Virus record (IMG/VR): IMGVR_UViG_3300030060_004778
Coordinates: 5,568-27,107 of that record
Length of the DNA: 21,540 nucleotides
Direction: 5' to 3' (one strand)
DNA from: a virus
A program made the position numbers and the translations under genes. Positions 1-15,803 of this stretch are shown one piece after another. The notes beneath the pieces are model-generated. The model made no database searches, was not told the DNA's origin, and saw only the letters and a list, made by a program, of their open reading frames with translations. Position 1 is the first letter of the stretch. Each line of letters begins with the position of its first letter.

Positions 1-3000
1 GCATTAAATCCAGATTTTGTTATTGATGAGATTGCAATAGTATCTCCTGTTTGAATATTTACTATATTTGCATTGACTATTGGTACAAATCCATTTACTC
101 CTCCAATAGTTACACTAACTCCAGTAAAGAATTTATTTGGAAATGTAACTGCCTTTTGTGCAGTGCCACTCGCAATCTGACTCGTTGGAAATTGAGTACT
201 AGATGTCATAAACATTTTAAAACCAAGTTCGGTTACACAAATATTTGATGTTGTATTTGAAGAACTTAAAACTACTTTAAATTTAAATCCTCTTGCCTTA
301 AGAAGGGTTTTACCAAATTCTTGGAAAGCACTAAATGTAGCTGATCCACTATTAGGATCATCATTTGTTGTACTAACAAAAATCTTTGCATCTACATCAG
401 AAACTGCTGAACCAGTAGAAACATTAAATCCAGTAGCAGATAATCTCCTTTCAATTAACACATCATGAATTTCTTCTAAATCTAAAACATTATTAAATTC
501 ATATTCACCACTAGCTAATACATCATTCGGGAAATCCCAACTCACAAGATTATCTACATTAGAAACAGAATCCCAAAGTATATTGCCTTTTAAAACGATA
601 CCAGTTAAAGGAATTGGATAATTTGGTGGATTGTATTTTTCTAAATTACTAAAAGTACCTTGAAATGTAGGATTATCTGTGTCTTCCTTTCTATCTAATA
701 TTAAAGTATGATTTCCAGTAATAGCAGTAAGTACAACACTAGCTGGATTCGCACTTTGTTTGCCTGCTATATTTTCAAAAACAACAAAATATTTTCCTGT
801 AATAGCTGGTACGTTTGCACTTGTAGAATTACCAGCGACTGTTAACAATGAAACAGCATCAGCAAAAGTAGCATTTGTTTTTGTACTATGTTTTATTACT
901 ACAGATCCACCTGATATGACATCTATAGAAGTTGATTGTGTCCAGTTTAATAATGCTTGCGTACTACTTACTTGAGTAATTTGTAAATTAGTAACATCAT
1001 CTGGCACTGATGTATTACCTACAGAATTAAATGTTAAATCACTTGAAGTAGCAGATAATTGTCCACGTACATTATATGAAAATACCTGTATCTCATATTT
1101 GCCTTTTCGATTATTTAAAATTTCAAAATCTGGTCTTGAAACTTTTTCACTAATAAAATTATTATTCTCATAACGATAATTTACTTGATATTCAAAGACA
1201 CCAATAATAGGTTGCCAAGAGATAATTATTTTTGATGACGCTTGATTATTTATATTTATCATTTTTTCAACAGCAACTAAATTTGATGGCGGATCTGTTA
1301 ATTGATCAAGATTAGTAACATCTCTTGCTGGAATTGATAAATTATTTTCTATAAAATTATATTTTTCATTTACATAAGACAAAGCAGTAATTTTATAATT
1401 AATACCATCTTCTTCCTCTACATTGATCACTCTAAATAATTGTGCTTTTACTGTAGTATTTTCAAGTAACCAAACAGTATTAACATTTGGAGTTTGAGAA
1501 TATGCAGAACTTACAGTTATTGTTCCGCCTGAGATTGATGAAATTGACCTGCTTTCAAAAGTTCCATTAGGTAAAATCAAACCTAAAGTAGCATTATTAG
1601 CAGTCGTAAGATCTGTTGCACTTGTATCGTCTACAGTTACAACAGTTGTTGAAGTAACAGATTTTAATCTACCTCCTCTTCTAACTCCTGCTCTTACAGG
1701 ATCATTTATTTCTATAACAGCTCCAGGTCTAACTATTGCACCAGAATCAATTGAGGTTGTAAATGTACAGATTTCAGTTTCATTAGCTTCACTAAAGAGT
1801 ATTGCACGACCCAATCTTGCAGCTTGACCTCTAGAAGTGCATGCAAAACCTTTGACCTGTTTTACGATATGACCAATTTTGTTTATCAAAGCAGTATCTT
1901 CTACGACCTCATAATCTATTTCTCTACTATCCATATTGAAATAAGATACAGATACGACACTTGATCTTGTCTTAGCACTGCTGCCAGAATAACTAAAACC
2001 TTTTTCACCTACATTTGATAAATTAAATAAATAACTTGCATCTGTTGGTTTATCTTGTGTAATTGTGATTGATCCAGCAGACCATATGGGCATACAACGC
2101 ATTACACCTGCAAGGTCATTTATAAGATCAAAAGCTTCACTAGGAGATTGAATATTGACATTGCAACTAAATCTAGCTTCCTGTCCTCCTCTCCCATCAC
2201 TAACAAGAGTATTTGCAAACTTACTTGCATTAACAAAGGAAAATAAATCTAAACTACTATCTGTTATATGATCTCCAAATCCATATCTTGTATTAGTTAG
2301 TAAATCAAGTAAACACATCGCTGGACAATTAGTATAAACTGCTGCACCCATCACTCCGTTAAAAATATATCCACTGGGATAAACTATTCTTCCTGTTGCA
2401 CTATCAACTCCAGGTGTTCCTGAACCAGATGCACCTGCACCTGGTATTCTCACTTTTATGCCCCTAATTCTAAATATTCTTGAAGGTATAGAACTAAACT
2501 CTTGAGCATCTATTCTTAGGGCAGTATAAGCACTGTTGTTATACCTAAAAGACTGATCTATTACTTCTGTAAAACTTGTAAATTGAAATGCATCAACTAA
2601 ACCACTGTCAGTGCTATCGGCTGTAACTCTTATAACTCTAATATCAACAGGAAAAGATCCTGTGATATTGACTCTATAATCTTTTTGGTATGGGTCTGCT
2701 GTACGACCTGTGATTGTATCCTGTATTACATCAGTAAAACCACCTGAATTATATTGAACAGCAATTTTTAGTTCAACAGAAGAACCTAAAACATCTCCCT
2801 GATCAGTTATTTTTTGCAACTGCGGAAATGTTATTGAAACTCTAATTGCATCTACATTCGTATTTGTTATTTGTCTTGTTACTGGTGTCGATGCTGTAAC
2901 AGTTACACCTACAGAAGATGTAGATTGACTGCTTTTTATCCCAGGAATAGGTGTTTGAGGTGATATTCCAACTCTAAATTTAAAATTACCAGAAATATCA

Positions 3001-3752
3001 TCACCATCTTTAAAACCAGTAAAATTAAAATCTGAAGATGAAGGTGAAGATGCAGATGCAGACGATTTTAGTATAGGAGTATTATTCAAAAAAATATCTT
3101 TTAAAAACGAATTGCGATATTCCTGTGAACTTTTATTTGTAAAACCATCTTTTGATGCAGTTGCACTACCTTCAATTTCACCTTCAGAAAAAAGATCAAG
3201 AATAGTTGCAAACTGCCTACTATGTAAGGTGTCTGGAGTTCTTGTCGGTGTTCTTCCTCCTCCACCTTTTCTACCTCCTCCACCTCCAGCTCCCGTAATC
3301 CCTAAACCTAAACCAGCATTATGAACTCTTATATTATTTGCAATAAAAGTATGTTGATTCTCAACATTTAAATTGTAAACAGTTTTATATCCAATTTTTT
3401 TCTTTGAATTAAATGGTACTAAATGATTATTTTGGTTAACGGCACAATCATCTTTATCTAAAGTTCCAACACCTACAAAAGCATTAAATTGATTTAAAAT
3501 CCAATGATTTGGTGTCGCAATAAAACTACTTCCACCCCAAAAATTGTATTCCCATACCTCTTCGTTTTCATGTTTAAAAACCTCTAAAACTTTTGCTTGA
3601 TAAATTTCACCTTTGTCGTCAAAACTTAAAACAAAATCTCCTTTTTTAATTTCGTTGATTTTTTTATAGCCAAAAGGTGTAGAAACTTTAGTATCACCTG
3701 TAAAACAACCACCACCTCCAGCACCTCTAATAATTTTATTATCTTTTGTCAT
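1..3752 (-). CDS. J: Tail-tip / host-specificity protein, lambda gpJ-like, with N-terminal Hint domain (3' end outside window)
   Basis: This is the central tail-tip protein that in lambda-type phages closes the tail tube and recognises the host receptor. The reading frame is open for 1250 codons from ATG 3752 to the left edge, so the C-terminal receptor-binding part is not visible. Residues 1-15 are a short Gly-rich leader, residues 16-145 a Hint domain, and a second Gly/Arg-rich stretch follows. From about residue 175 the sequence follows lambda J closely: FSEGEIEG, RFSCN, MRCMPIW, ITQDKP and FACTSRGQAARLG all have clear lambda counterparts. Fibronectin-III-like segments follow around 700-1310. 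The start overlaps the end of gene I in an ATGA junction. Homology to J is strong; the Hint insertion is the unusual part. Lambda J is about 1130 residues, so this one is longer even without the Hint domain. Confidence 0.95.
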   Translation of the reverse strand, partial: MTKDNKIIRGAGGGGCFTGDTKVSTPFGYKKINEIKKGDFVLSFDDKGEIYQAKVLEVFKHENEEVWEYNFWGGSSFIATPNHWILNQFNAFVGVGTLDKDDCAVNQNNHLVPFNSKKKIGYKTVYNLNVENQHTFIANNIRVHNAGLGLGITGAGGGGGRKGGGGRTPTRTPDTLHSRQFATILDLFSEGEIEGSATASKDGFTNKSSQEYRNSFLKDIFLNNTPILKSSASASSPSSSDFNFTGFKDGDDISGNFKFRVGISPQTPIPGIKSSQSTSSVGVTVTASTPVTRQITNTNVDAIRVSITFPQLQKITDQGDVLGSSVELKIAVQYNSGGFTDVIQDTITGRTADPYQKDYRVNITGSFPVDIRVIRVTADSTDSGLVDAFQFTSFTEVIDQSFRYNNSAYTALRIDAQEFSSIPSRIFRIRGIKVRIPGAGASGSGTPGVDSATGRIVYPSGYIFNGVMGAAVYTNCPAMCLLDLLTNTRYGFGDHITDSSLDLFSFVNASKFANTLVSDGRGGQEARFSCNVNIQSPSEAFDLINDLAGVMRCMPIWSAGSITITQDKPTDASYLFNLSNVGEKGFSYSGSSAKTRSSVVSVSYFNMDSREIDYEVVEDTALINKIGHIVKQVKGFACTSRGQAARLGRAILFSEANETEICTFTTSIDSGAIVRPGAVIEINDPVRAGVRRGGRLKSVTSTTVVTVDDTSATDLTTANNATLGLILPNGTFESRSISSISGGTITVSSAYSQTPNVNTVWLLENTTVKAQLFRVINVEEEDGINYKITALSYVNEKYNFIENNLSIPARDVTNLDQLTDPPSNLVAVEKMININNQASSKIIISWQPIIGVFEYQVNYRYENNNFISEKVSRPDFEILNNRKGKYEIQVFSYNVRGQLSATSSDLTFNSVGNTSVPDDVTNLQITQVSSTQALLNWTQSTSIDVISGGSVVIKHSTKTNATFADAVSLLTVAGNSTSANVPAITGKYFVVFENIAGKQSANPASVVLTAITGNHTLILDRKEDTDNPTFQGTFSNLEKYNPPNYPIPLTGIVLKGNILWDSVSNVDNLVSWDFPNDVLASGEYEFNNVLDLEEIHDVLIERRLSATGFNVSTGSAVSDVDAKIFVSTTNDDPNSGSATFSAFQEFGKTLLKARGFKFKVVLSSSNTTSNICVTELGFKMFMTSSTQFPTSQIASGTAQKAVTFPNKFFTGVSVTIGGVNGFVPIVNANIVNIQTGDTIAISSITKSGFN
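3318..3707 (-). other. Hint (bacterial intein-like) domain in the N-terminus of J
   Basis: This 130-residue segment, residues 16-145 of J, carries the splicing blocks of inteins and bacterial intein-like (BIL) domains. It starts CFTGDTKV with catalytic Cys16. The N3/B block ATPNHWIL gives Thr80-x-x-His83. The C-terminal blocks read VYNLNVENQHTF and NNIRVHN, with penultimate His144 and terminal Asn145. No homing endonuclease is present; it is only a minimal Hint fold. The residue after Asn145 is Ala146, not Cys/Ser/Thr, which argues against canonical splicing and resembles A-type BIL domains, known for self-cleavage at either end. Both flanks are glycine-rich (RGAGGGG before, AGLGLG after). 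The domain call is secure; the activity is inferred. Confidence 0.92.
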
Positions 3753-4309
3753 TTCACTACCTGCTCTGTATCAACACCTGCACTTATTACAACACTTCCT
3801 GTAAATATTTCACCATAAACTATAGGAACGGGTGTTCCTGCCCTACTGGTTTGCTGTGTTCCAGAAAAACTATACGATAATCTAGGATCTTGTTCATTTG
3901 AAAAATCTGCTTGCTTTGGTTGGGGAAATAACATCTGTGAAACACCTTGTAATACTAAAGCCATACCTAAATTCTTAAGAAATGGAGCAAAGAAAAGTCC
4001 ACCTGTAGCAAATCCTATACCAAGTAAAACTGCACCAGTGATAAATCTTCCTACTCCTCCACCTGCACCAATAATCACAGGAATAAAATGTATATCTTCT
4101 TGTCCTATGGGATAATCTAATTCTGATTCATCTATTTCATAATTACCAATCTTAACTTGATAAAATTTTGGATTCATAAATTTATCTATACCTTCAAAAT
4201 TATTAATTAAAAAACTTACAGCTTTTGCAAGACTATCTACTTGCACTTGAAATTCTGTATGACCAACAAATTCAGCAAGTTCTCCATAAAGTTTTATTTT
4301 ACGCATCAT
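3749..4309 (-). CDS. I: Tail assembly protein, lambda gpI-like
   Basis: This 186-residue protein corresponds to lambda gpI, needed to assemble the tail tip before J is completed. The first 80 or so residues look like a small ubiquitin-like fold (KIKLYGELAEFVG at the start), as in the TAP-I family. A Gly-rich turn (IIGAGGG) leads into a hydrophobic, membrane-like stretch of about 45 residues. The C-terminal part contains GTPVPIVYGEIFTGSVVISAG, shortened here to key positions V-P-I-x-Y-G and V-I-S-A-G, a hallmark of gpI proteins. It lies between K and J in the lambda order, overlaps K by 11 bases and overlaps J by an ATGA. It is somewhat shorter than lambda gpI (about 220 residues). Confidence is high for family and context. 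Confidence 0.9.
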   Translation of the reverse strand: MMRKIKLYGELAEFVGHTEFQVQVDSLAKAVSFLINNFEGIDKFMNPKFYQVKIGNYEIDESELDYPIGQEDIHFIPVIIGAGGGVGRFITGAVLLGIGFATGGLFFAPFLKNLGMALVLQGVSQMLFPQPKQADFSNEQDPRLSYSFSGTQQTSRAGTPVPIVYGEIFTGSVVISAGVDTEQVVK

Positions 4310-5000
4310 AACGATACCTTTTGCCAGTACATTTTAATAACCATTCAGAATATGGTTCTCTACAAGATAGTCTATCTGCTAAGTGATGTAAAACCATCTC
4401 TCCTAAAAAAATAGCTACATGATTTAAAGTTGGATACATTATTGACATTAATAATACATCTCCCTCTTCAAGACTTTCATTATTATTTAATTCTCTAAAA
4501 CCAGTTTGTGAAGCATAAGATTCAAACAAAGGATTTTCTAAAAATTCTAAAGGAGTCATATTTCTTTCATAATCTTTTAAAATAATATTTCTTTCTTCTT
4601 TATACCAATCCACAACTAAACTCCAACAATCAGTAACACCAAAAACCCATTTACGTCCTAATAAAGGTGCTTTGTATCCACAAGGTTCATAATATCCCCA
4701 TTTTTCAGTCTTCGGATTCACAATATGCCAGGGAAGTTTTGTGCGTTCACAACATAATTTATCTGCTTGACTAGGTTCTGGTGGAGTTACAGGATGAGAA
4801 TGAACAATAGCAATAACATCTCCTTTACTAGATGCTTTAACATAATCAATTGGATCAAGAATAAAAGTCTGATATGGGCTTAAAGATAAATTATTGCAAG
4901 AAATATATTTTTCTTTCCCTTTTATATTTACTAATAATCCAACAGATTCTTTAGGATCTTGCTCTTTGGCATGAGACAATGCAACCTCTTTCCAATTCAT
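4299..5000 (-). CDS. K: Tail assembly protein, lambda gpK-like: JAMM protease plus NlpC/P60 domain
   Basis: This 233-residue two-domain protein matches lambda gpK, a tail-tip hydrolase. The N-terminal JAB/MPN domain has a complete zinc-protease JAMM motif: Glu18, then His67-Ser-His69, Ser77 and Asp80 with the expected H-x-H-(7)-S-x-x-D spacing. The C-terminal NlpC/P60 cysteine peptidase domain shows Cys125 in GVTDCWSLV and His194 in LNHVAIFLG, the usual catalytic Cys and His. Family knowledge suggests cell-wall hydrolysis during DNA entry or processing of a tail-tip protein; which applies here is not known. Both active sites look intact. The start overlaps L by four bases and the end overlaps I by 11. 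Confidence 0.93.
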   Translation of the reverse strand: MNWKEVALSHAKEQDPKESVGLLVNIKGKEKYISCNNLSLSPYQTFILDPIDYVKASSKGDVIAIVHSHPVTPPEPSQADKLCCERTKLPWHIVNPKTEKWGYYEPCGYKAPLLGRKWVFGVTDCWSLVVDWYKEERNIILKDYERNMTPLEFLENPLFESYASQTGFRELNNNESLEEGDVLLMSIMYPTLNHVAIFLGEMVLHHLADRLSCREPYSEWLLKCTGKRYRYDA

Positions 5001-5575
5001 ACGTTGATCGTACCAATAGAAGGAAACTCTTCTCTAGTACATTGTCTTTTTGGCCCACGAATACCCGCCATGTCTAATACTGATGCAAGTTCAAATTGAA
5101 CTATTTCTCTGTTTTCTATAGATTTACGATCAATTACATAAATTTCTTGTGGAAACTCTGCTGTTGGATCAGGTGTTCCGTAAGGATTAATATTGCCAGG
5201 GAAATTAAATATATCTAAAAATTTAGCAAGAGTTCTTATACGAACAACAGTTGCACCTGTCAGATCATTACCAATAGTTGTTTGATTAACATTTAACAAG
5301 ATAGATGTAATTGTTCCAAGTGCGTTACTAACAGTCAAAGTCGGTCTAGGTAATTGCCCTCTTTGAAAAGCAAAACCTTCTGCTTTTATTGGAAAACGTT
5401 GATACGCATTTTCCTGCCAGATTACTTCTCCGTTATCTTTTAAACTTGTACCGTTATGAAATCTATAAGTAGTAGCAGATCCATGCAATGCAACTGTAGT
5501 TGTTAAAGTAAAAAGTTCAATAATCGAGGAAGGATTTATATTTTGTAAATCATCTATGATATTTGCAGTACTCAT
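4997..5575 (-). CDS. L: Minor tail protein, lambda gpL-like, lacking the C-terminal Cys-rich module
   Basis: This 192-residue protein is the gpL-like tail-tip hub component by sequence and position between M and K. The body is recognisable: LFTLTTTVALHGSATTYRFH near residues 21-40, a middle FQRGQLPRPTLTVSN segment, and YVIDRKS...FELASVLDM near 146-169. Lambda gpL is about 232 residues and ends in a domain in which four cysteines hold an iron-sulfur cluster. Here the protein stops soon after GPKRQC and has only one cysteine (Cys179), so that module is missing. The next gene starts in an ATGA overlap with the stop, leaving no room for a hidden continuation. The family call is confident; the loss is seen directly. 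Confidence 0.88.
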   Translation of the reverse strand: MSTANIIDDLQNINPSSIIELFTLTTTVALHGSATTYRFHNGTSLKDNGEVIWQENAYQRFPIKAEGFAFQRGQLPRPTLTVSNALGTITSILLNVNQTTIGNDLTGATVVRIRTLAKFLDIFNFPGNINPYGTPDPTAEFPQEIYVIDRKSIENREIVQFELASVLDMAGIRGPKRQCTREEFPSIGTINV

Positions 5576-6138
5576 GGCTCAAATACCTCTCTAAATGTCG
5601 CCTGTACTGTTGCACGGTTATTATAAGGAATAGATTTAGTCCAAGACTCACAAACATATTTACCCGCACCAGATAATGTAATAGAAACATTTCCAGTTGT
5701 TGTAGCACTAGAAGCTGCTGTTACTGTAAAAGTATTAGAACCCACAACAGAAGCGACAAGAAACGTACCATCCGTAGCAGATCCAGAAGTATAATCTATT
5801 GTTAATTCATCACCTAAAGCAACACCATGATTTGTAATAGTAATAGTAACTGTAGTACCTGATTGTGAGTATGTTCCTGTCTTAATAAAACCTTCACCTC
5901 CTGGAGTAAAATCAAAACTGGCATTATCATTCGCCCTGCTATCTAAAAATGCCTCTATAACATCTGCTTCGGTTTCAGACACATTAAAAGTTAAATCATA
6001 AACCTTTGGATTTTGATGTGGTACAAGTCCAAATAAAATTCTATGTTCAAATCCATCAGCGAAACGTACTGTTCTAGTTTTAGGTTGTGATTTCTTTTGT
6101 TGCCCGTATGTTGGGCTAATTGATGGGAAAGTAGCCAT
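5572..6138 (-). CDS. M: Minor tail protein, lambda gpM-like, with inserted beta domain
   Basis: This 188-residue protein belongs to the lambda gpM family, which sits at the tape-measure end of the tail tip. The family core is split in two: residues 1-86 (RTVRFADGFEHR, SETEADVIEAFL, FDFTPGGE) and residues 157-188 (KYVCESWTKSIPYNNRAT, ending FREVFEP). Together these make about 118 residues, close to the usual length of about 109. Residues 87-156 between them are an extra Ser/Thr/Gly-rich beta domain described separately. The start shares one base with the end of the tape measure gene and the end overlaps L by four bases, keeping the lambda gene order. Confidence 0.88.
   Translation of the reverse strand: MATFPSISPTYGQQKKSQPKTRTVRFADGFEHRILFGLVPHQNPKVYDLTFNVSETEADVIEAFLDSRANDNASFDFTPGGEGFIKTGTYSQSGTTVTITITNHGVALGDELTIDYTSGSATDGTFLVASVVGSNTFTVTAASSATTTGNVSITLSGAGKYVCESWTKSIPYNNRATVQATFREVFEP
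5671..5880 (-). other. Beta-rich domain inserted in gpM
   Basis: Residues 87-156 of the M protein interrupt the normal gpM fold. Key elements are a Ser-Gly-Thr-Thr-Val strand, NHGVALGDEL, TSGSATDGTF and NTFTVTAAS, an alternating pattern typical of a small beta sandwich. From memory, modules of this pattern recur as inserts or repeats in marine phage virion proteins. A surface decoration or sugar-binding role is only inference. Confidence 0.65.
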
Positions 6139-8795
6139 TATGCAAGTAAACCTCCAGGACGTTTTTGTTTAACAAGCTCAGATTCAATCGCTGCCGATAA
6201 AGCCAGCCCAAGCTGCCTACCTTCTGAATCATCACCTTCAACAGATGAACCTGATGCATCAACATTTACAACTATATTAGTACTACCACCTAGAGCATTA
6301 TTTGGTGTAACCATACCACTTACACCAGGAGTAAACATTTCTGGACCTTTTTCTCCAACAATATAAGATCTTCCTCCTTTAGCTGGTCCGCCTGAATGTA
6401 AAAGTCCTCCAAAAATAGTTCCTAATAAACCACCACCAGAAAATAAACTGCCTCCAACATTGCCAAATAAAGCCATATTCAAGAAAGCATCTGCCATCTT
6501 ATTTAATATGTTTCTAAAAGCATCATTTAAGCTATTTGCTCCAGTTATTAAACCTTTAATAGCAGTGCTCATTTCTGTAGCTAATAAAGTGTTAATTTCT
6601 TGAGTTAAACGTTTTTGCTCTAATAAACCATCACTTCTTAATTTGTTATTACGTTGAATTTTAAAACCCTCTTCATCAAATAGAGCTAATTGTTCTTTAT
6701 TAAAACCTAATGTTGCTTCAGCTAAAGCGATTTCATATTCAGTTCCAGAAAGTTTAACTAAATTTAGTTGATGTTGTAACTTTAAATTTTCTGTAACAGA
6801 ATTAGCATTTTCTTTAAGTTTTTTAATTCTTTTAGCTTCTTGATCAGCAAGTTTCTTGTCTTTTTCTATTTGATCATCCAGTGCTTTTTTTTGTTTTTCT
6901 AGAAATTTCTGTAATTCTTTTTTATCTTTTAATTTTGCTGCCTGTATATCTTTGTCAAGTTCATTAATCTTACGTGTTGCATTTAATTCAGCTATTTTTT
7001 TCTTGCCTTCATGGTTTCCTGCTTTTTCTATCGCTAGTAATTTTTCACTTTCAATAATTGCCTCCTTAATCTTCACGACATCTGCATCTAAAAGGCTTCC
7101 ACTGGATTTTTGTAAAGCTATTCTTTCTTTTAAAATATTTATCTCAAACTGTGAGAAGTCTTTTTCAGATCCTGATGATCCTAATGAATTTAAATCAATT
7201 TCTGATTTAAAAGCTTTTTTATTAAGTTCTCTCATTCTTTGAATTATTTGATTTTCAAAATCTGCAACTGCTTTAAAATCAGGGGCACTACCACTTAAAA
7301 AGAATCCTTTGCTTGCTTGTGTTCTTTTTTTAAATAAATCTTGAATAATAGTGTCATCTGATCTTTTGGCTTGTTTAAATAAATTTGCTTTTTCTAATGC
7401 ATTAGTTAAAGTTTGCAAAAAACCTATAGAATTTATAAGTTCAGCTACCGCAACCTGCATTAAAGTCATAGCTTTAGCAAACTCATTACCTAACTTCACG
7501 CTATCTTCTCCAAAAGTTTTAAGTGAATTAATTCCATCTTTACCTATTAACAAAGTAAGTTGACCTGTTGCAATTTCTAAAGCCTTTGTTTCTTCTCCAG
7601 CCTCTTTCAACTTAGAAATCAACTCACCTGTTTTTGTCCCTTGTAAACCTAATGATTTTACTAACAAGTCTAAATCAGGGTTTATAGGATCTAAAGCTAA
7701 ACCTAAATCTTTAACACCATTTGTAAATTCCGATAACTTACTAACTAAAGCAGTAACAGCAATAGAACCAGCAAAACCACCTCCAGGACTTATAGCTTCA
7801 CCAATACCACCACCTAATGCACCTCCGATAGCTTGTGCTGGACCACCACCAAATAACAAAGGAAAACCACCTCCAATAAAAGCACTTTGAGCAATACGGC
7901 TACCTCTTCTTTGTAATTTTTCTTGCATTGTTAAATTCTTTTGAGTCTCAATATTTATTTGTTTTGCAAGTTGAAATTCTTGTTTTTTTATTTTTACACC
8001 AGCTTGTTTTAAATCATTAAGTAATTTTTCTTTTTGAGTTTTATTTAAAGTTGAAGATTTTATTCTTTCTTCTATATTTGCAGTTTGTTGTAAAAGAGCA
8101 TTAGTTTTATCTAATATAGATTTTCTTTTCTTTTCATTTTCTAATTCATCTTTCTTTGCTTTTCTTTTTGAAGGAGAACCAGTAAGTTTATTAATCTTTT
8201 TTTCTATAGACGCATTTTTTTCTAATTGTCTTCCTATAGCTTCATTAATATCTTTAAATTCTTGTGAATTTACATTAACAACCTCCAACATACTATTAAG
8301 CATGGACATTGCATTTCTACCTGCAAGTATTGTTTTAGGAAACTTTTCAATTTCTTTTATTGTTTCACCAACATTTCCTAGAATTAATCCTTTATTTCTT
8401 CTCTTATCAGTAGCATTAGCGAAAGCTGTAGCTTCCATTGTTAATTTTTTAAAGTCTCCAGCAAGTATCGCAGTGGCAGCTCTTTGTCTTTCTGTTGCAG
8501 TAGTGGCATCATTAAATGCTTTTTTAATTAAAGAAACCTGTTCAGTAACTGATGAAATTTTAGAGCCAAACGCACTTAAACCTGCACCTTGATTAAATTT
8601 ATCTACTAGCTTTAGCCCTTCTTCAATTTCTTTATTAAGTTTTTCAAATGCTTTTTGAGCTGCTGAAGTTTTTGGTTTTAAATCCTTATTATTTAATCTA
8701 TCAATAGTCTTTTCTAATTTTCCTATCTTTTTAAGAGACTCGTTTAGTTTAGTCTCTACTGTTTTAATTCTTAAGGTTATATCCTTTTGTGTCAT
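6138..8795 (-). CDS. H: Tail tape measure protein (lambda gpH-like), 885 aa
   Basis: This is the longest complete gene, encoding the protein that sets tail length and is ejected ahead of the DNA. The N-terminal 290 residues are Lys/Glu-rich and strongly helical. A Gly-rich hydrophobic stretch at about 295-352 (FIGGGFPLLFGGG, GGGFAGSIAV) could insert in a membrane. More coiled coil follows at about 540-690. The C-terminus has the typical tape-measure signature GRSYIVGEKGPEMFTPG followed by a PNN turn. By the known proportion of roughly 1.5 angstrom per residue, 885 residues would suggest a tail near 130 nm, unless the protein is trimmed. It follows the G/T chaperone frames and precedes M. The start ATG directly follows an in-frame-independent TAA with no clear ribosome site. 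Confidence 0.95.
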   Translation of the reverse strand: MTQKDITLRIKTVETKLNESLKKIGKLEKTIDRLNNKDLKPKTSAAQKAFEKLNKEIEEGLKLVDKFNQGAGLSAFGSKISSVTEQVSLIKKAFNDATTATERQRAATAILAGDFKKLTMEATAFANATDKRRNKGLILGNVGETIKEIEKFPKTILAGRNAMSMLNSMLEVVNVNSQEFKDINEAIGRQLEKNASIEKKINKLTGSPSKRKAKKDELENEKKRKSILDKTNALLQQTANIEERIKSSTLNKTQKEKLLNDLKQAGVKIKKQEFQLAKQINIETQKNLTMQEKLQRRGSRIAQSAFIGGGFPLLFGGGPAQAIGGALGGGIGEAISPGGGFAGSIAVTALVSKLSEFTNGVKDLGLALDPINPDLDLLVKSLGLQGTKTGELISKLKEAGEETKALEIATGQLTLLIGKDGINSLKTFGEDSVKLGNEFAKAMTLMQVAVAELINSIGFLQTLTNALEKANLFKQAKRSDDTIIQDLFKKRTQASKGFFLSGSAPDFKAVADFENQIIQRMRELNKKAFKSEIDLNSLGSSGSEKDFSQFEINILKERIALQKSSGSLLDADVVKIKEAIIESEKLLAIEKAGNHEGKKKIAELNATRKINELDKDIQAAKLKDKKELQKFLEKQKKALDDQIEKDKKLADQEAKRIKKLKENANSVTENLKLQHQLNLVKLSGTEYEIALAEATLGFNKEQLALFDEEGFKIQRNNKLRSDGLLEQKRLTQEINTLLATEMSTAIKGLITGANSLNDAFRNILNKMADAFLNMALFGNVGGSLFSGGGLLGTIFGGLLHSGGPAKGGRSYIVGEKGPEMFTPGVSGMVTPNNALGGSTNIVVNVDASGSSVEGDDSEGRQLGLALSAAIESELVKQKRPGGLLA

Positions 8796-15262: not shown

Positions 15263-15384
15263 TTCTTTTTCCTCTTTTTTTTCTTGGTACGTAATTTCTT
15301 TAAATCAGCAGCCGTAATCTTATCTCTTGGAGGTGCAACAGCAGCAAGCTTACGTTGCTTTGCAGAATAAGATGTTTTAGGCAT
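15259..15384 (-). CDS. Small Lys-rich protein, 41 aa
   Basis: This 41-codon frame starts at ATG 15384, in a TAATG overlap with the stop of the putative major tail gene, and ends TGA in an ATGA overlap with the 49-aa gene. It reads MPKTSYSAKQRKLAAVAPPR, then DKITAADLKKLR, and ends in a nearly pure lysine/arginine tail of nine residues. The AAVAPPRDKITAADLK core looks conserved in marine phage proteins from memory. The function is unknown; the tail could bind DNA. Confidence 0.72.
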   Translation of the reverse strand: MPKTSYSAKQRKLAAVAPPRDKITAADLKKLRTKKKKRKKK

Positions 15385-15803
15385 TAGATATCAAATGCAG
15401 TTACAGGACCACTCATTTGAAAGCTCAAAGAAATAGTTTCGATATCACCAGTAGTTGCAGTTACAGAAGCACCTGTAACAATTCCATTAAATTCTAATTT
15501 TTTGTTACCACTTGTATCTAAAAACAGATGAAACTTAGCATCAGCAGGGTCTTCTGTTGTAACAATATCAGAAATAATACTTGCAGTAGCATCACCAGAT
15601 GTTGCAGTGTAAAGAACATCAACAGATCCAGTACCAGAAATTAAGCTACCTACATACTTTCTAGCAGTATCGCCTTGAGCAGTACATTCCAAAGTATCTT
15701 TTGTAAGATCCATTGACCAAGCAGTAGTAGATGCTATAGCAGCAGGAGTGCTACCAGAAGCATGAAAGGCTACTGAACCTTCTTCACCACGAAAAAATGC
15801 CAT
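15384..15803 (-). CDS. Putative major tail (tube) protein, 139 aa
   Basis: This 139-residue beta-rich protein looks like a major tail tube subunit. It begins FFRGEEGSVAF, then WSMDLTKDTLECTAQGDTAR (around residues 29-48), RKYVGSLISGTGSVDVLY, and ends with GDIETISLSFQMSGPV. The pattern W-S-x-D-x-x-K-D-x-L-x-x-T, a central S-G-x-G-S turn, and a final strand F-Q-x-S-G is typical for this protein type. No other tail tube candidate exists in the structural block. It is displaced: lambda-like order would put it between terminator (9392-9820) and chaperone G. Here it lies between terminase and portal among tiny basic genes. Confidence 0.75.
   Translation of the reverse strand: MAFFRGEEGSVAFHASGSTPAAIASTTAWSMDLTKDTLECTAQGDTARKYVGSLISGTGSVDVLYTATSGDATASIISDIVTTEDPADAKFHLFLDTSGNKKLEFNGIVTGASVTATTGDIETISLSFQMSGPVTAFDI

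Follow-up and report, generated by a model that had tools for sequence, protein, structure and literature searches.

A mobile, probably self-excising Hint domain at the extreme N-terminus of the tail-tip protein J of uncultured phages

The J gene and its surroundings

The window analysed here is a stretch of 21,540 nucleotides from an uncultured, apparently marine phage (IMG/VR record IMGVR_UViG_3300030060_004778, positions 5,568 to 27,107 of that record), which begins within a homologue of the lambda tail-tip gene J. Its relevant features, all on the minus strand, are as follows; relatives are given by locus (L) number.

3..3752, minus strand: reading frame of the J homologue, open at the window edge
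3708..3752, minus strand: N-terminal flank ("leader"), J residues 1-15, MTKDNKIIRGAGGGG, with motif copy 1; identical to the N-terminus of the Hint-less J of L045/L046
3318..3707, minus strand: Hint domain, J residues 16-145 (TIGR01445/TIGR01443, Pfam Hint/PT-HINT, AlphaFold and PDB comparison, relatives, dN/dS)
3255..3317, minus strand: C-terminal flank, J residues 146-166, AGLGLGITGAGGGGGRKGGGG, with the +1 Ala and motif copy 2 (AGLG/AGIG in 103/110 relatives; motif in its loose form in 115/115)
3169..3721, minus strand: donor-like block, 80% identical in DNA to L004 over 553 bp, with L045-like DNA (85-91%) on both sides (BLASTN breakpoints, alignment)
3..3254, minus strand: remainder of J (HDII, FNIII-A, HDIII/IV, FNIII and onward), running past the window; PHROG_31 and NF049904 match from residue 157-160 on
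3749..4309, minus strand: gpI-like tail assembly/plug gene directly upstream of J (PHROG_32, E 1e-46)
4997..5575, minus strand: gpL-like hub gene P0004 (PF05100), without the C-terminal four-Cys Fe-S domain

The identity of J is firm. Profile searches returned PHROG_31 (E 8e-193) and PF24801, FNIII-A_GpJ (E 3e-36), so that both the J hub and the FNIII-A domains of the lambda gpJ family are present. The order of the genes, gpL-, gpK- and gpI-like followed by J, is that of lambda, and the start codon of J overlaps the stop codon of the gpI-like gene as ATGA at 3749-3752. Since the first aligned position of the NCBIfam lambda_TipJ model (NF049904) is J residue 160, the Hint domain precedes everything that corresponds to lambda J.

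Several neighbouring genes deserve mention in their own right. The gpL-like P0004, whose C-terminus reads ...PKRQCTREEFPSIGTINV, lacks the C-terminal four-Cys [4Fe-4S] domain described as universal among gpL homologues. A link between this loss and the Hint domain looked promising because the C-terminal domain of lambda gpL and the N-terminus of gpJ jointly build one domain (PMC10721106), but it was rejected: the truncation also occurs in the Hint-less relatives of the window (L045-L124), and more distant Hint-bearing phages retain the four cysteines. The gpM-like minor tail protein P0006 (5572-6138, minus strand) carries at residues of about 85-155 an inserted, PF12195-like beta domain (YSQSGxTVTIT...GD...G.F.V..V...NTFTV), and a similar segment lies inside the J of L002, around residues 430-500; this domain may be one that shuffles among the structural proteins of phages. 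At 15384-15803 (minus strand), a major-tail-protein-like gene (phrog_10528, E 3e-22) is located between terminase and portal, apart from the other tail genes.

Anatomy, profiles and predicted fold of the Hint domain

The domain comprises 130 amino acids, with Cys16 as its first residue (Cys1), the block Thr80-Pro-Asn-His83 and a terminal His144-Asn145, and is followed by Ala146 at position +1. The initial annotation had placed at this site a complete Hint domain with all its catalytic residues, no endonuclease and Ala at +1, preceded by only 15 residues, and had proposed a profile search as a check; the coordinates, the residues and the length of the N-terminal flank are all correct, and the search returned Hint and intein matches. 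The N- and C-terminal splicing motifs both score above cut-off, as befits the Hint superfamily: TIGR01445 (intein_Nterm) matches J with E 8e-9 and 36.4 bits against a cut-off of 24.5 (36-42 bits across tests), and TIGR01443 (intein_Cterm) reaches 17.0 bits against 15.6. The Pfam profiles Hint, PT-HINT and Intein_splicing are weaker and mostly lie just below their cut-offs, with E-values between 2e-4 and 2e-6 for full-length J and between 2e-6 and 1e-7 for the excised domain; PT-HINT (PF07591, cut-off 27.7) gives 23.6 bits on full J and 28.7 bits on the excised domain. In a profile search of PDB sequences, the top match was the BIL domain 2lwy (E 1e-9), and gp41-1 and other mini-inteins were found as well.

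An AlphaFold model, computed from an alignment of 44 sequences, has a pLDDT above 90 for most of residues 20-140 with disordered flanks. Its best PDB matches in structure comparison are inteins and BIL domains, with VIA Z-scores of 20-22 (maximum 22.4, to inteins) and deviations of mostly 1.3-1.9 A over about 130 residues, and Foldseek aligns it to 6y75 with E 6e-13, in keeping with a Hint fold. A chance match is ruled out by the several independent profiles, the fold and the 110 relatives described below.

With regard to the known Hint classes, the domain has the Cys at residue 1 and the block B TxxH of class 1 inteins (Cys16 and T80-P-N-H83, conserved in 110/110 relatives), but Ala146 stands where these require Cys, Ser or Thr. 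It is not a homing intein, as nearly all distinct copies are 130 amino acids long without an endonuclease insert. Neither is it a PT-HINT domain releasing a C-terminal toxin, since the part C-terminal to it is the phage tail protein J. A-type BIL domains, in the definition used here (PMC9185962, PMC4031507), span 130-155 amino acids, end in His-Asn and have no obligatory nucleophile at +1; the J domain agrees with them in its 130 residues, its terminal HN and its Ala or Gly at +1.

Distribution and conservation of the family

Successive, progressively wider scans of IMG/VR with the Hint domain matched 9, 37 and finally 559 loci; four loci were from bacterial or MAG contigs (Betaproteobacteria, Oxalobacter, and Cyanobacteria and Chloroflexi bins). 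In all 139 ORFs holding both ends, the domain sits at the N-terminus of J, and five further loci are J N-termini cut by contig ends; outside J, the IMG/VR scan found nothing except one weak match in an unrelated protein. The J-Hint domain appears to be a previously unseen Hint subfamily, encountered only at the J N-terminus. The cultured-phage records searched contained no Hint on J: tblastn with three divergent members retrieved only other Hint- or intein-type matches (in helicase, RNR, TerL and similar proteins), never J, and a fourth member, L007, gave no match. A class-wide search around the Oxalobacter genome found the domain in that genome only, among 274. The open-access literature searched yielded no description of a phage tail-tip J with a Hint or BIL domain.

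The length of 130 amino acids is kept in nearly all copies, and Cys1, TxNH and the terminal HN are intact in 110/110 distinct copies, totals which for TxNH and HN include rows listed as exceptions to the search patterns; a copy with lost catalytic residues was not found among these 110. Position +1 is Ala in 103, Gly in five, Ser in one and unreadable in one, followed nearly always by GLG, and position -1 is Gly in 112/112 distinct copies. The patterns used in the IMG/VR scans included the NHWxLNQ block, and the count was therefore redone on loci found via the J sequence alone, free of Hint-based selection, where Cys1, TxNH and HN were intact in 35/35. Identity between members falls to about 41-45% overall while pairwise dN/dS lies at 0.02-0.13, which points to strong purifying selection on the domain. 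The conservation of Cys1 and TxNH goes beyond what C-terminal cleavage needs, and a specific N-terminal reaction may thus be relevant. Two further segments, NHW[VI]LNQxNxF and DDC, are invariant and specific to J. They exceed generic Hint needs and could reflect an interface, a dedicated partner or a function beyond self-removal. The single Ser at +1 belongs to L130 (around 5989-6400, HN|SGLG), the sole family member with a nucleophile there and, among these domains, a natural candidate for true splicing.

The flanks and a duplicated J N-terminal motif

The host protein J is conserved, but the insertion site lies in its variable Gly-rich N-terminal tract. J proteins without the Hint domain start with Met, a few residues, the motif [IV]-x-G-[AS]-G-G, a Gly-rich (or Pro-rich) stretch, often one Lys, and then the conserved start of the hub domain. 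Those with the domain carry the motif twice, ahead of Cys1 and after HN (AGLGxxIxGxGGGG-K-GGGG). The hydrophobic residue of I-x-G-x-G-G stands at +7 in 99/115 relatives, similar to the distance of 4-8 between Met1 and the motif in Hint-less J. In its strict form, the motif is missing from copy 1 in 19/115 relatives (kept in 96/115, about 83%) versus 6/115 for copy 2, and its spacing is variable in copy 1 and nearly fixed in copy 2.

Pairs of J with and without the domain differ by the Hint domain plus one motif copy, as exemplified by L248, which lacks it (MTQTKYVVGAGGG-KGGGGRSTPTEADD), and L193, which has it (MTQTKYVVGAGGG-[Hint]-AGIGLRVAGAGGGGGKGGGGSRSTPTEADD). Because of the duplicated motif, the predicted joined product is longer than the Hint-less allele by about 14 residues, so that removal with joining does not restore the uninterrupted protein as it does for class 1 inteins. 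An ordinary class 1 intein is ruled out by the +1 residue together with this empty-site comparison.

The initial annotation had suggested release of J from a 15-residue leader as one possible role; these first 15 residues match the native N-terminus of the Hint-less L045 J letter for letter, and so are not a foreign leader. Its prediction that cleavage after Asn145 would leave a native-like J N-terminus is supported by the lambda_TipJ match from residue 160 and by the motif position at +7. An alternative start that bypasses the domain was also considered and rejected: J residues 136-240 contain no ATG or GTG and a single TTG at 222, and the next Met is at 468.

Two flanking arrangements were noted besides. 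In the Hint-less J of L045/L046, MTKDNKIIRGAGGGG is followed by an unusual FQK[FM][VA]KILLGSNND in place of the Pro-rich or Gly-rich linker of the others. L164 (3949-4545) reads MTQIIGAG-[Hint]-AGLGLGIGG-TRKIVGAGGGGGGKGGGG and is possibly an intermediate, as if the whole cassette had been placed ahead of a complete native J N-terminus. Direct DNA repeats at the edges of the domain agree in 15 of 18 bases in the window, and 136 loci average 14.7 versus 13.6 of 18 in codon-shuffled controls; being only slightly above these controls, the repeats are not claimed as a mechanism.

Horizontal acquisition and presence/absence polymorphism

The body of the window J is 89% identical to the Hint-less L045 and 49% to L002, whereas its Hint domain is 85% identical to that of L002. 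DNA identity to L045 (85-91%) ends at the Hint start and returns 90 bp past the Hint end, and the L004-like 553 bp span the domain and its immediate flanks. The GC content is 27% in the domain versus 33-35% in the flanks. These breakpoints and identities indicate that the window Hint was acquired recently from a distant J lineage, by recombination with one junction inside the Gly-codon tract and the other within or ahead of the conserved start of the hub domain.

The domain is present in 0/79 readable close relatives of the window J. Another J clade is polymorphic, with the domain in 36-38 members and absent in 41, and J proteins about 87-93% identical to each other differ in its presence. At least 12 presence/absence changes are needed on the J tree, 8 of them forced by well-supported branches, and on the Hint tree the window groups with L002, within a clade located elsewhere on the J tree. 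Gain and loss are not fully separable on the J tree as a whole; in the case of the window J, a gain explains the pattern more simply, given that the domain is missing from its sister and from nearly all J proteins close by. The initial annotation had described the domain as built-in, "not a passing intein", a description not supported in view of its absence from the close relatives, its variable presence among J proteins about 87-93% identical and the window copy derived from a distant J lineage. What stands of that interpretation is the set of intact, selected residues and the native-like J expected after cleavage; what falls is the fixed maturation module.

A proposed self-excising cassette and its alternatives

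Taken together, the J-Hint domain is probably a mobile, endonuclease-free, A-type-BIL-like self-excising cassette at the extreme J N-terminus, a removable passenger spread by recombination. Type A BILs, which lack the +1 nucleophile, have been proposed to form a thioester at their N-terminal Cys and to cyclise their C-terminal Asn; the amine thus released may or may not attack the thioester, and cleavage usually prevails, with ligation an occasional outcome (PMC4031507). By analogy, the Hint domain would fold on nascent J, and Asn145, helped by His144 and the block F His, would cyclise and cut the chain before Ala146, freeing a J with the N-terminus AGLGLGITGAGGGGGRKGGGG (beginning AGLGLGITGAGGGGG) as a substitute for the native one. 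Cys16 and the TPNH block would form a thioester at Gly15-Cys16, which would then either undergo hydrolysis or react with the newly exposed Ala amine in a BIL-type ligation, so that the domain would be fully excised with the 15-residue flank joined or not. The cassette would spread without a homing endonuclease, the Gly-codon tract and the downstream J sequence being the places of homologous recombination.

Because the cassette brings its own motif copy, J would be native-like and working both with and without renewed attachment of the 15-residue flank. This would explain the lost +1 nucleophile, the extreme N-terminal location and the persistence as a removable passenger. The invariance of Cys1, TxNH and Gly -1 suggests that the N-terminal reaction is selected too, and hence favours full removal of the domain, possibly accompanied by some ligation, over C-terminal cleavage alone. 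As related J genes manage without the domain, it would be a removable passenger selected for self-removal and not a required maturation step. A counter-point to a discarded leader is the conservation of motif copy 1 in about 83% of Hint-bearing J proteins, although this conservation may stem from shared descent and Gly codon bias.

The same invariance of the N-terminal (Cys1, TxNH, Gly -1) and C-terminal (HN) centres would also suit a true splicing element, in which BIL-type aminolysis of the Gly15 thioester by the Ala146 amine chiefly yields MTKDNKIIRGAGGGG linked to AGLGLGITGAGGGG, and thereby a J with a doubled N-terminal motif. Retention of the N-flank motif in 96/115 agrees with this, as does the presence among the close solved relatives by sequence of CthBIL4 (2lwy), whose paper, going by its title as cited in PMC7664689, concerns ligation without nucleophilic side chains. 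We nevertheless consider splicing as the main outcome unlikely: a +1 nucleophile is almost absent (one Ser in 109 readable copies), type A BILs mainly cleave (PMC4031507), about 14 residues would be left over relative to the empty allele, and the leader motif is degenerate in 19/115 while the loose motif is never absent from copy 2. At the other extreme, an inactive Hint could remain unprocessed on J as an extra N-terminal domain, an extension that the variable Gly tract would tolerate; yet none of the three catalytic centres varies across 110 distinct copies with overall identity as low as about 41-45%, and purifying selection is strong, which makes such mere decoration scarcely credible.

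A dedicated role in tail assembly has also been weighed. A tail-tip partner (gpI, gpL or gpK) might trigger cleavage and so license J for assembly, a maturation or timing switch to which the J-specific invariant block NHW[VI]LNQxNxF...DDC, the strict restriction to one gene and one site, and the packing of lambda gpI on the gpJ hub domains via beta augmentation (PMC10721106) would all be congenial. Such a switch is rendered improbable by J proteins about 87-93% identical that lack the domain, by its absence from 79/79 readable close relatives of the window J, and by the gpL Fe-S loss, the only neighbour change examined, which does not track Hint presence. There is also a slim chance of a dedicated phage module that uses its N-terminal thioester to put the 15-residue flank back on J, or to hand it to a different tail-tip chain, in a transpeptidation controlled by the invariant NHWxLNQ/DDC segments; tip assembly or release would then be timed by protein chemistry.

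Significance

Hint domains so far described are either inteins, which are spliced, possess a +1 nucleophile and reside in conserved enzymes, or BILs, which cleave and reside in variable bacterial proteins. The J-Hint domains form a large and abundant family that is site-specific and horizontally mobile like an intein, yet has no splicing nucleophile and carries a copy of the host N-terminal motif. If the self-excising cassette is the true reading, an intein-like element can maintain itself at the front end of a protein with neither homing nor splicing, and the virion J of many uncultured phages starts at a different N-terminus than annotated. The family also offers naturally varied mini-Hint domains, probably C-cleaving, for protein tools, and the J pairs L193/L248, L222/L258 and L250/L235, each with one empty and one filled allele, make a fitness cost or benefit directly testable.

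Comparison with known systems

Among known systems, A-type BIL domains such as CthBIL4 (2lwy; profile E 1e-9, Z 21.2, 26% identity to the window Hint) share with the J-Hint domain a length of about 130 amino acids, Cys1, TxxH, a terminal HN, no required +1 nucleophile and no endonuclease. Known members have been described from variable regions of non-conserved bacterial proteins, whereas J-Hint occupies one fixed site at the N-terminal end, in the variable Gly-rich tract, of an otherwise conserved phage tail-tip protein, and has its own invariant NHWxLNQ block and a copy of the host-protein N-terminal motif after HN. Class 1 mini-inteins (gp41-1, DnaB, the Mtu RecA splicing domain) have in common with it the fold, the catalytic blocks and TIGR01445 and TIGR01443 scores above cut-off, and both are polymorphic in presence and move horizontally at one site; unlike them, nearly all J-Hint members lack a +1 Cys, Ser or Thr, exact excision would yield a product different from the empty allele, and there is no homing endonuclease.

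The pretoxin Hint domain PT-HINT (PF07591) is similar as a Hint whose action would release the polypeptide C-terminal to it, but J-Hint would free structural J instead of a toxin and has almost nothing N-terminal to it. Inteins of phage genes such as TerL and RNR (e.g. in phiCbK, PMC3556154) are likewise Hint domains within phage genes, although they lie inside enzymes, at conserved sites and with intact extein on either side. Lambda gpJ, finally, is the same protein as that downstream of the Hint domain (NF049904 from residue 160), and none of the cultured-phage records searched has this Hint on J.
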